40,896 nt of DNA, taken from Gemmatimonadota bacterium. GTDB taxonomy: Bacteria > Gemmatimonadota > Gemmatimonadetes > Gemmatimonadales > Gemmatimonadaceae. This document shows positions 22,218 through 38,072 of the stretch, piece after piece. A program made the translations under genes and the position numbers. Each line of letters starts with the position of its first letter. Positions within the stretch are counted from its first letter, which is position 1. The notes beneath the pieces are model-generated. The model did no database searches. It was not told the origin of the DNA and saw nothing but the letters and a program-made list of their open reading frames with translations. Where the stretch lies: positions 1 through 40,896 of the forward strand of contig JAHFCT010000029.1 of assembly GCA_023249375.1 (NCBI GenBank). The letters run 5' to 3'.

Positions 22218-22218
22218 G

Positions 22219-22353
22219 GGACAGGGATCACGGATCACGATTCAGGATTCCGATGACGGAGTCCGATCAGCGATTGAACAAACTGCCGGGCTAGGTCCAT
22301 CGCGATCTCAATCCTGAATCGAAATCCGATCTCGCAATCCGTGATCCCTGTCC
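22219..22353. repeat. Palindromic element, copy 1
   Basis: Outer arms GGACAGGGATCACGGAT (22219-22235) and its perfect reverse complement (22337-22353), with a second inner pair CGATTCAGGATT (22238-22249) and AATCCTGAATCG (22310-22321). The 17-bp outer arms recur exactly at 33371-33387 and 33478-33494. It starts one base after the manC stop and extends to 14 bp before the apaG start. Confidence 0.85.
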
Positions 22354-22367
22354 TCAATCGACTCCCT

Positions 22368-33369: not shown

Positions 33370-33495
33370 AGGACAGGGATCACGGATCTCGATCGCGGAT
33401 TTCGATTCAGGACAGGGAAATGCGATTGTACAGGGTTCAATCGCGATCTGAATCCCAAATCCGGATCCTCAATCGAAATCCGTGATCCCTGTCCT
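33370..33495. repeat. Palindromic element, copy 2
   Basis: Arms of 18 bp (33370-33387 and 33478-33495) are perfect reverse complements and contain the same 17 bases as copy 1. The interior holds alternative pairings, for example CGGATTTCGATT (33396-33407) with 33471-33482, and AAATGCGATT (33418-33427) with AATCGCATTT (33497-33506) just outside the arm. Confidence 0.85.
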
Positions 33496-34303: not shown

Positions 34304-34377
34304 GTGGCTGTAGCTCAATTGGTTAGAGCACCAGACTGTGGCTCTGGGGGTTGCGGGTTCAATTCCCGTCAGTCACC
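34304..34377 (+). tRNA. tRNA-His (GTG)
   Basis: Acceptor GTGGCTG pairs with CAGTCAC (one G-T), anticodon GTG lies in the loop of the CCAGA/TCTGG stem, the T-arm is GCGGG-TTCAATT-CCCGT. G at 34303 can serve as the extra G-1 opposite C73, the histidine identity element. CCA is not encoded. Confidence 0.95.
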
Positions 34378-34446
34378 CTGAACCAGCGGGGCAGAAGGGC
34401 TTGGGGGCGCAGCAATGTCTCCCTCGGCGGGCTCCCCGCTGACTCT

Positions 34447-34519
34447 AGGTCAGTAGCTCAATTGGTAGAGCACCGGTCTCCAAAACCGGCGGTTGAAGGT
34501 TCGAGTCCTTCCTGGCCTG
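34447..34519 (+). tRNA. tRNA-Trp (CCA)
   Basis: Acceptor AGGTCAG pairs with CTGGCCT; anticodon stem CCGGT/ACCGG encloses CTCCAAA with anticodon CCA; discriminator G. No encoded 3' CCA. Confidence 0.95.
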
Positions 34520-34566
34520 CTCGGCCGTGCTTTTTGACATTGGCAATGCAGCATGCAGGACACTCT

Positions 34567-34639
34567 GGCGGTATCGTCTAGAGGCCTAGGACGCGGCCCT
34601 CTCAAGGCTGTAACACGGGTTCGAATCCCGTTACCGCTA
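34567..34639 (+). tRNA. tRNA-Glu (CTC)
   Basis: GGCGGTA pairs with TACCGCT, with a G-T at 1-72; the D-arm starts GTCTAG as in other tRNA-Glu; anticodon CTC in CCCTCTCAAGG; T-arm ACGGG-TTCGAAT-CCCGT; discriminator A. The weak first pair is a small oddity. Confidence 0.93.
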
Positions 34640-34657
34640 TTCTTCTGGCCAGAGCTC

Positions 34658-34729
34658 AGCCTCATCGTCTATCGGTTAGGACGGCACCCTTTCAAGGTGC
34701 AGAGACGGGTTCGATTCCCGTTGGGGCTA
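34658..34729 (+). tRNA. tRNA-Glu (TTC)
   Basis: AGCCTCA pairs with TGGGGCT (one T-G); anticodon TTC in CCCTTTCAAGG; T-arm ACGGG-TTCGATT-CCCGT; discriminator A. It is one base shorter in the D-loop than the neighbouring tRNA-Glu (CTC). Confidence 0.94.
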
Positions 34730-34820
34730 TGCAGGGCCCGACGGATCTGCCGATGCTTCAATGGCGGCTCGGCGGCGCATGAAGTTGCAGGAGGACCGTA
34801 GTTGGCGGCGGCCCGGTAGT

Positions 34821-34854
34821 ACGTCTACCGTCAACCGTCTACCATCTACCGTCT
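34821..34854. repeat. Period-7 repeat array upstream of tRNA-Asp (CTACCRT orientation)
   Basis: Five degenerate heptads of the type CTACCGT/CAACCGT/CTACCAT follow one another up to just before the tRNA-Asp gene. They are the reverse complement of the arrays that follow tRNA-Asp and tRNA-Leu. Confidence 0.75.
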
Positions 34855-34861
34855 GCAGTTT

Positions 34862-34936
34862 GGGGGCGTAGCTCAGCTTGGTTAGAGCACTTGACTGTCA
34901 CTCAAGAGGCCGCGGGTTCGAGCCCCGTCGCTCCCG
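34862..34936 (+). tRNA. tRNA-Asp (GTC)
   Basis: GGGGGCG pairs with CGCTCCC (one G-T), anticodon GTC in TTGACTGTCACTCAA, T-arm GCGGG-TTCGAGC-CCCGT, discriminator G. Heptad repeats flank it on both sides. Confidence 0.95.
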
Positions 34937-34978
34937 TAGTAGAGTGTAGATGGTGGATGGTAGATGGTAGAGTGTACG
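34937..34978. repeat. Period-7 repeat array between tRNA-Asp and tRNA-Leu (GGTAGAT orientation)
   Basis: Degenerate heptads GTAGATG/GTGGATG/GTAGATG/GTAGAGT fill the spacer. With the array at 34821-34854 they form an inverted pair around tRNA-Asp. Confidence 0.75.
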
Positions 34979-34992
34979 TGCTGGAATGGCTC

Positions 34993-35074
34993 GCCCTGGT
35001 GGTGAAACTGGTAGACACGCCATCTTGAGGGGGTGGTGCGGTAACGCGTCTCGGTTCGAATCCGAGCCAGGGCA
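34993..35074 (+). tRNA. tRNA-Leu (GAG)
   Basis: GCCCTGG pairs perfectly with CCAGGGC, discriminator A. Anticodon stem CCATC/GGTGG encloses TTGAGGG with anticodon GAG. At 82 nt it has the long variable arm of class II tRNAs (GTGCGGTAACGCG region). Confidence 0.94.
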
Positions 35075-35081
35075 TACGAAA

Positions 35082-35133
35082 GGCAGATAGTAGATGGTAG
35101 ACGGTAGAGGGTAGACGGTGGATCGACTGGACC
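35082..35133. repeat. Period-7 repeat array between tRNA-Leu and tRNA-Thr
   Basis: Heptads of the type GTAGATG/GTAGACG/GTAGAGG/GTAGACG/GTGGATC, same orientation as the array at 34937-34978. Confidence 0.75.
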
Positions 35134-35147
35134 GAAGCCCGCTCCGT

Positions 35148-35219
35148 GCCACAGTAGCTCAGTGGTAGAGCACTCGATTCGTAATCGAGCGGTCGTCGGT
35201 TCAATCCCGACCTGTGGCT
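35148..35219 (+). tRNA. tRNA-Thr (CGT)
   Basis: GCCACAG pairs with CTGTGGC; anticodon stem CTCGA/TCGAG encloses TTCGTAA with anticodon CGT; discriminator T. It is the last tRNA of the cluster. Confidence 0.95.
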
Positions 35220-35244
35220 CTTGTAAGGTGTGATCGACGACTTC

Positions 35245-35275
35245 GCCGTCCCGTCTCCGGGACGGCTTTTTCGTT
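35245..35275 (+). terminator. Rho-independent terminator of the tRNA cluster
   Basis: GCCGTCCCG (35245-35253) pairs perfectly with CGGGACGGC (35258-35266) across a 4-base loop, followed by TTTTTCGTTTT. This is the textbook form and lies 25 bp after tRNA-Thr. Confidence 0.9.
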
Positions 35276-35351
35276 TTCTGGACCCTGCGAGCCGCCTCGC
35301 GTCCGCTGCGTTGTTCCGCCACGGCGCGGCGGCGAGCAGATTACTCCCACC

Positions 35352-35906
35352 GTGCTCCGTGAGGCGCTCCTGCTGGTCCCATCCGCCACTGCACCGCTCG
35401 ACTGGCCCCGCCAGATTCACGACATCTTCCGGCGCGAGCGCATCGCGCAGGTGAGCTACGTGCCTGACGCCGGACACGCCTCGCTGATCGAGCGATGTCG
35501 TGCGGACGCCGCCATTCGCGACGTCGTTCTGACCACCGAGGAAGAAGGCGTCGCGCTCGCCGCTGGCGCCTGGCTCGGCGGTGCCCGATCTGCCCTGCTG
35601 ATGCAATCGAGCGGCGTGGGCAACTGTGTGAACATGCTGGCGATGATCCGCAGCTGCGGATTCCCGCTGTTGATGCTCGTCACGATGCGCGGCGAGCACG
35701 ACGAGTTCAATCCGTGGCAGGTGCCCATGGGCACGACGACGGGTGACGTGCTTCGGCTCTGCGGCGTCGACGTGCGCCGCGCAGAGGTCGCTGGCGAAGT
35801 CGCGGCGACGGTGGCATCGGCGTGCGAGCACGCGTTCGCCAACGAGACCGCCGTCGCCGTGCTGCTCGCACAGCGGCTGATCGGGCCCAAGCAGTGGGTG
35901 CGATAA
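35352..35906 (+). CDS. TPP-dependent decarboxylase, alpha (PYR) subunit, ComD-like
   Basis: A 184-aa protein equal to the N-terminal TPP-binding domain alone. Glu in VVLTTEEEGVALAAGAWL is the cofactor-activating residue, and LMQSSGVGNCVNML and TMRGEHDEFNPWQ follow the sulfopyruvate/phosphonopyruvate decarboxylase alpha pattern. GTG 35352 is chosen because it starts where similarity begins and after the tRNA terminator; the frame is open back to 35214 through the tRNA end. The stop overlaps the next ATG (TAATG). The true substrate (sulfopyruvate, phosphonopyruvate or another 2-oxo acid) is not decided by sequence. Confidence 0.8.
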   Translation: MLREALLLVPSATAPLDWPRQIHDIFRRERIAQVSYVPDAGHASLIERCRADAAIRDVVLTTEEEGVALAAGAWLGGARSALLMQSSGVGNCVNMLAMIRSCGFPLLMLVTMRGEHDEFNPWQVPMGTTTGDVLRLCGVDVRRAEVAGEVAATVASACEHAFANETAVAVLLAQRLIGPKQWVR

Positions 35907-37929: not shown

Positions 37930-38072
37930 CCACGGATGATTCGGATTGGACGGATCAACACGGATACTGCGAACTGCTTGGGGGTGTGATGCCGCCAATG
38001 TGGCGCCACACACCCCCTTTGAATTGCAGTTGCCCGATCCGTGTCCATCCGTCCAATCCGTGTCATCCGTGG
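37930..38072. repeat. Large palindromic element with nested hairpin
   Basis: Arms of 36 bp (37930-37965 and 38037-38072) are reverse complements apart from a few mismatches and are built from CACGGAT/ATCCGTG words. Inside, AACTGC/GCAGTT (37972-37977, 38026-38031), GGGGGTGTG/CACACCCCC (37980-37988, 38009-38017) and CGCCA/TGGCG (37993-37997, 38001-38005) nest to the centre. It occupies most of the 324-bp gap between the mannosyltransferase and the small lipoprotein; nothing gene-like is seen in the rest. Confidence 0.85.

Follow-up and report, generated by a model that had tools for sequence, protein, structure and literature searches.

The three arrays of degenerate GGTAGAY heptads that lie between tRNA genes in the window (the whole 40,896-nt stretch analysed here) are probably single arms of a dispersed palindromic family of tandem heptads, a homogenised passenger repeat that tRNA processing tolerates and does not require. 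A complete copy of such an element would be a hairpin in an intergenic gap, composed of a GGNNGAY run, a loop that sometimes holds a G+C-rich terminator-like hairpin, and a reverse-complement run.

The source of the window is a draft genome of 3.81 Mb that is 95.9% complete. ARAGORN placed seven plus-strand tRNA genes at 34304-35220, in the order His-Trp-Glu-Glu-Asp-Leu-Thr, and an EF-P gene lies beside the cluster. The closest matches of this EF-P come from metagenome-derived genomes of Gemmatimonadota, and the source is accordingly an uncultured member of that phylum. A strict array was defined as three or more heptads with no more than two mismatches in any of them and a mean of no more than one. 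The window contained exactly three such arrays and 40 dinucleotide shuffles of it gave none, so the arrays that the first-pass annotation had described in three tRNA spacers are real. Array 1 (34822-34859; strict limits 34823-34857) lies on the minus strand and consists of five GGTAGAY units, which read RTCTACC on the plus strand. It is a right-hand arm in the Glu-Asp spacer and adjoins the 5' end of tRNA-Asp(gtc) (34861-34937, plus strand). Array 2 (34938-34972, plus strand, five units) is a left-hand arm in the Asp-Leu spacer and adjoins the 3' end of the same gene, which has an arm on each side. Array 3 (35080-35124; strict limits 35082-35123; plus strand, six units) is a left-hand arm in the Leu-Thr spacer, 7 nt past the 3' end of tRNA-Leu(gag) (34993-35074, plus strand) and ahead of tRNA-Thr(cgt) (35148-35220, plus strand). 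Array 1 is thus inverted relative to arrays 2 and 3, as had also been noted at first pass.

All 332 units in the strict arrays of this genome were GGTAGAY-like, with frequent variation at positions 3, 4 and 7 (GGTAGAT, GGTAGAG, GGCAGAT, GGTAGAC, GGGAGAT and GGTGGAT). Position 3 was C in 26 of the 64 gene-proximal units and in 79 of the 332 units overall, and comparison of these two sets revealed no clear end motif of the elements. On the minus strand, long open frames (34882-35322 and 34902-35831) run antisense through the tRNA genes and the arrays; RTCTACC repeats are stop-free in every frame, and these open frames are probably not genes.

A search of the window's own genome for three heptads with no more than three mismatches returned 215 overlapping raw matches, a count made without a valid chance control. 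The reversed pattern was rejected as such a control, since a GGTAGAT array reversed is again a GGTAGAT array or, with C, a CAGATGG array; dinucleotide shuffles were used as the chance control. The strict scan covered 39 stretches around raw matches, 20 background stretches and the remaining tRNA loci, and superseded a loose first scan (91 segments) in which array ends were blurred. The examined stretches contained 64 distinct strict arrays, beside many kinds of genes. Thirty-eight of these arrays were single, 13 belonged to opposite-orientation pairs outside ORFs, one lay at a contig edge and 12 lay inside called ORFs, some of which are possibly miscalled because gene boundaries came from a home-made caller that misplaced some genes.

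Orientation followed a simple rule: an array that adjoins either the start or the stop of a gene reads GGTAGAY outward from that gene. Three of the 38 single arrays were about equidistant from both neighbours, leaving 35 that could be decided, and 32 of these obeyed the rule (P = 6e-7; P = 7e-6 without the window's three arrays). Single arrays closer to the left gene were plus in 17 of 18 cases, and those closer to the right gene were minus in 15 of 17; the array in L068 was scored as an exception, though by an earlier gene call it lies directly after a plus-strand stop. Neighbouring arrays of opposite orientation were arranged plus then minus in 10 of 10 cases (P = 0.002), which is GGTAGAY followed by RTCTACC and hence a hairpin, with a predicted loop of 4 to 5 nt in L044, in L058 and in two copies in L065. 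Arms in both flanking gaps of a gene enclose that gene in an inverted repeat, and the inverted layout around tRNA-Asp arises because an arm lies on each side of it under this general gene-end polarity.

Arrays often start only a few nucleotides away from a start or stop codon. This proximity would suit binding sites for a translation factor or RNA-binding factor, with the pyrimidine strand running into start codons and the purine strand out of stop codons, much as has been suggested for TAACTGA heptamers. We consider such sites very unlikely indeed, as arrays also abut tRNA genes, occur on the stop side, on the start side and within coding sequence alike, and have a heptad that varies by species. 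The available part of the TAACTGA report describes tandem heptamers of marine Beggiatoaceae, Cyanobacteria and Bacteroidetes that lie in gaps, often just upstream of starts and in a preferred orientation, with some overlapping stop codons or lying in ORFs; it proposes a translational role and lists 169 direct sets and one indirect set in the main genome (PMC4679880). The arrays studied here resemble those heptamers in behaviour only, as 7-nt tandem units oriented to gene ends, with no common descent implied. They differ from the heptamers as described there in having another sequence, common inverted pairs, copies beside tRNA genes and a heptad that changes between species (PMC4679880).

Arrays were present in 7 of 68 tRNA-flanking gaps compared to 1 of 90 background gaps without a tRNA (P = 0.012), an excess with P = 0.083 when the window's cluster was left out. 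Five of 27 tRNA loci carried an array. Gaps beside tRNA genes may be somewhat favoured by arrays, most of which lie elsewhere. The first-pass suggestion of mobile micro-repeats that spread near tRNAs was supported as far as a dispersed repeat is concerned, with dozens of copies, presence or absence by species and in-frame copies in a gene, whereas support for an attachment to tRNAs was modest. Even scatter with no relation to tRNA genes or orientation describes the arrays only in part: they have a modest relation to tRNA genes but are strictly related to gene boundaries and orientation.

The comparison of the tRNA cluster, made by eye, covered the 7 of the 10 genus relatives that had a long match, which leaves out G007, G008 and G009. 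The tRNA spacers of L100, L101, L102, L103 and L105, which are five of the six best EF-P matches, are those of G004, G003, G005, G006 and G002, respectively. A plus array was seen in the Leu-Thr spacer of all seven relatives, although it was weak in G006. The Glu-Asp spacer contained a minus array beside tRNA-Asp in five of the seven, an 11-nt repeat in G005 and neither in G003, while the Asp-Leu spacer contained heptads in none of the seven, an 11-nt repeat in five, a 6-nt repeat in G003 and no repeat in G004. Because relatives share arrays 1 and 3, and array 2 was seen by eye only in the window's genome among the eight compared, arrays 1 and 3 are, judged from these sequences, older than array 2. 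In G032, which belongs to another genus, GGTGAAY and GTTGTGA hairpins were seen by eye in the same tRNA cluster.

Folding of the tRNA precursor was predicted. In the minimum-energy fold, 33 pairs joined array 1 to array 3 and enclosed tRNA-Asp and tRNA-Leu (fold z = -5.2), about 0.2 pairs were expected between arrays 1 and 2, and array 2 paired with tRNA-Asp itself. In this prediction, array 3 rather than array 2 is the partner of array 1. Duplex energies were -68.2 kcal/mol for arrays 1 and 2 and -78.5 kcal/mol for arrays 1 and 3, and arrays 1 and 2 could pair in a transcript without array 3. The strong predicted pairing, the complementary arrays in both spacers of six of the eight genus genomes compared and the modest excess of arrays beside tRNA genes would all fit a processing device, in which inverted arrays pair across tRNA-Asp, or across tRNA-Asp and tRNA-Leu, and guide cleavage of the primary transcript. 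We nevertheless judge a device of this kind very unlikely. When spacers were swapped among the six species with both arrays, they paired almost as well as own spacers (-63.2 versus -66.5 kcal/mol; P = 0.10 in a test of low power). The array upstream of tRNA-Asp is missing from two of eight genomes (G003 has no repeat there and G005 has another one), array 2 occurs in one of the eight, and in the predicted fold array 2 is engaged with tRNA-Asp. Moreover, 61 of the 68 tRNA-flanking gaps are empty of arrays, and protein genes show the same orientation rule. The proposal that the arrays shape tRNA processing was therefore not supported; no tRNA-specific role was found for the arrays in the cluster, and their inverted layout looks like no special tRNA device.

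Orthologous gaps were sought in relatives, in regions that were 74-87% identical; each denominator below is the number of relatives with a matchable gap, and the array threshold gave one match in 378 shuffled 120-bp pieces. The tuf-rpsJ gap contained both arms in the same order in 7/8 relatives, and a different G+C-rich hairpin was seen by eye in the eighth, G003. A plus array was present in the rpsJ-rplC gap of 7/8 relatives. NCBIfam confirmed EF-Tu and ribosomal proteins S10 and L3 as the products of the genes flanking these gaps. Minus arrays were found in 7/9 relatives at L054:2912-3056, in 3/5 at L047:2943-3013 and in 2/6 at L047:4326-4370, where three others had the 11-nt repeat and G006 had nothing. 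At L047:1166-1271, where the own genome's array is below threshold, both arms were present in 3/7 relatives, the minus arm alone in two, and the gap was empty in two (14 bp in G006 and 44 bp in G005). At L054:3624-3892, both arms occurred in 3/8 relatives, the minus arm alone in two and no arm in three; by eye, a G+C-rich terminator-like hairpin lies between the arms in several species, G006 retains that hairpin but lacks heptad arms, and both arms and hairpin are missing from G002 and G005. The reversed arm order was not encountered in any of the compared orthologous gaps. Array position and orientation are often common to species, and the heptad is species-specific. In the gap before rplC (L058:3395-3541) we also observed AGTCCAACGGCCA in 8/8 relatives, followed by a fairly conserved stretch that extends to the start codon and is possibly a ribosomal-protein leader.

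Copies also occur in frame within a protein gene. In L065, a 1212-residue open frame was identified as an error-prone DNA polymerase (NCBIfam NF004225, over the cut-off). Across the genus genomes compared, four linker sites in this protein carried in-frame repeats, which were heptad hairpins, palindromes of other kinds or copies of the 11-nt repeat. No heptad runs were seen by eye at the four linkers of the outgroups G013 and G018, whose linkers are shorter than those of the genus at sites 1, 2 and 4 and longer at site 3. By eye, the heptad at site 1 is GGTAGAT in G000 and G009, GGCAGAT in G007, GGCGGAT in G001 and G004, GGGAGAC in G002 and GGTCRAC in G003; the linker of G006 is short, at 66 nt, and another palindrome occupies the site in G005 and G010.

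Further repeat families were noted at these and other places, the first two of them by eye. At polymerase sites 1-3 (L181, L184-L187 and L189), a third palindrome family has the near-constant loop GGCCGCAGGACCGCGCAGCGGTCCGAGAGC or its complement, and its arms are complementary within a copy and different between copies. The 11-nt repeat family (CAACAGAGAAA; L072-L076 and L293-L295) replaces heptads at the same sites, its purine-rich strand reads outward from the abutting gene, and at polymerase site 4 it encodes a AEKQQRDNRETTEKQQ-like linker in several relatives. Within the window, a pair of long hairpins whose ends match (GACAGGGATCACGGAT ... ATCCGTGATCCCTGTCC), at 22218-22355 and 33370-33495, belong to another repeat family; the hairpin at the gap before EF-P is, by eye, absent in L100 and L103, and unrelated hairpins are present in L101 and L102. 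A hairpin of CACGGAT / ATCCGTG repeats surrounds a G+C-rich inverted repeat at 37930-38072 of the window, and its unit also occurs in the background stretches L210, L212 and L220.

Pairing between the arms was compared within and across species, with the split point chosen on the own pair, which somewhat favours own pairs: the arms at tuf-rpsJ gave -52.1 kcal/mol with their own partners and -43.2 kcal/mol in random cross-species combinations (eight species, P = 0.0006; P = 0.0018 without the near-duplicate G010), and the arms at polymerase site 1 gave -63.0 and -51.0 kcal/mol, respectively (seven species, P = 0.0002). At both sites the two arms vary jointly from species to species. The first test excluded G003, which has the other hairpin, and G006 and G008 were absent from it; the second excluded G005 and G010 (other palindrome), G006 (66-nt linker) and G008. 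No significant own-arm effect was detected at polymerase sites 2 and 3 (P = 0.21 and 0.33), where only four and three species, respectively, had heptads by eye. Matching specific to each pair of arms was not detected within the window's genome. In 14 pairs, four of them from the loose scan, the likeness of arms from the same hairpin was 0.529 and that of arms from different hairpins was 0.536 (P = 0.62). This equal likeness within and between hairpins points to genome-wide homogenisation. Most simply, every species would maintain heptads of its own throughout its genome, and arms would match through homogenisation of the family rather than through mending of each pair by selection.

A bolder interpretation, which we regard as possible if doubtful, is that within each species the heptad is rewritten in a concerted manner across the genome, with no loss of position, polarity or pairing, which would call for a new trans-acting process. 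Such a process could be machinery that copies or converts repeats after recognising heptad hairpins at the ends of genes, or else a sequence-specific factor that co-evolves with its many sites.

The conservation at tuf-rpsJ and rpsJ-rplC counts against a passenger repeat and could reflect a selected function; the longer outgroup linkers at polymerase site 3 also speak against our preferred reading. The main rival to that reading is a role as functional intergenic RNA hairpins, in which the arms would form or extend transcription terminators or would stabilise mRNA, as suggested for some REP elements, and pairing is selected while the heptad changes. This role deserves attention especially at tuf-rpsJ, where the hairpin persists with compensating arms and another G+C-rich hairpin takes its place in G003, and at convergent ends with arms around a G+C-rich hairpin. 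The arms around a terminator-like hairpin at L054:3624-3892 also speak for it. We think it unlikely, given that many copies are single-armed, some lie inside the polymerase reading frame, paired arms match no better than the arms of the genome's other hairpins, and the heptad arms at L054:3624-3892 are absent from G006, G002 and G005.

We examined the distribution of the family in 119 genomes. A one-mismatch pattern matched 11 of them, namely the window's genome, 9 of the 10 genus relatives and G062 from another genus. The reversed pattern, which is nearly the same test, added G006 within the genus and G012 outside it, with many matches each, and single places in four further genomes. A four-unit GGNNGAY pattern was present in all 10 genus relatives, with match counts between 31 and 389. 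With both readings counted, only G012 and G062 had more than a single match among the 108 genomes of other genera. The heptad family is nearly confined to one genus of uncultured Gemmatimonadota. Some arrays are locally uniform in their units, as expected of independent microsatellites grown by slippage at each site; we find that origin scarcely credible for a single scaffold that recurs at dozens of sites on many contigs of one genus and almost nowhere else, with a fixed polarity and in inverted pairs.

The explanation that we favour, a passenger repeat of palindromic build, entails several inferred steps. Copies would spread, or be replaced or exchanged, as DNA, and arm length would change by 7-nt slippage. 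One arm would often be lost, leaving single arms, so that one-armed copies would descend from hairpins. Conversion among copies would keep the heptads of one genome alike, and copies would be tolerated in gaps and in soft linkers. The arrays of the tRNA cluster would be passengers that are able to pair in the primary transcript. A mobilising enzyme was not detected. Y1_Tnp (PF01797, the RAYT domain) had no match in the window's genome, in a search whose control was positive in 5 of 14; since the genome is 95.9% complete, such a gene may lie on a part that is missing from it. An RVT_1 reverse transcriptase was likewise not found in this genome at the same completeness.

The heptad family belongs to a known kind, the interspersed palindromic repeats, and what is unusual is its concerted heptad. 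Rickettsia palindromic elements are palindromic repeats that lie in frame in protein genes, and the in-frame hairpins in the polymerase gene resemble them; the heptad family differs in its lineage, its build from heptads and its mostly intergenic location. The STRR heptamers of Nostoc and Anabaena are likewise seven-base tandem repeats dispersed between genes; to our knowledge, accounts of them mention neither a hairpin order nor a polarity at gene ends. A literature search of titles and the beginnings of abstracts, with most subscription journals outside its reach, found no report of such repeats in Gemmatimonadota, and four repeat strings gave no matches there. The accessible part of the REP literature describes GTAG- and CGTC-tagged elements as many short intergenic palindromes, single or grouped, for which a terminator or mRNA role has been proposed; some are intragenic, many of these in replication or repair genes, and CGTC REPs also occur without a dedicated transposase, whereas the GTAG kind goes with RAYT (PMC3733652). 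As far as that account extends, the heptad family is like REP elements in copy number, in its location in gaps and in having some copies inside repair genes, and differs in that its arms are tandem heptads of variable length and that no RAYT-type transposase was found in the genome (PMC3733652). GTAG is here part of many paired units along the arms and not an unpaired end tag as in the GTAG REPs described (PMC3733652).

These results turn a local curiosity of a tRNA cluster into a testable rule for a whole genus, that of gap-filling palindromes whose polarity at gene ends is fixed and whose seven-base unit changes in concert. The eleven related genomes form a natural series for studying how short repeats can disperse and remain uniform when no transposase is recognised, and the same series bears on how repeats enter genes such as that of the error-prone DNA polymerase.
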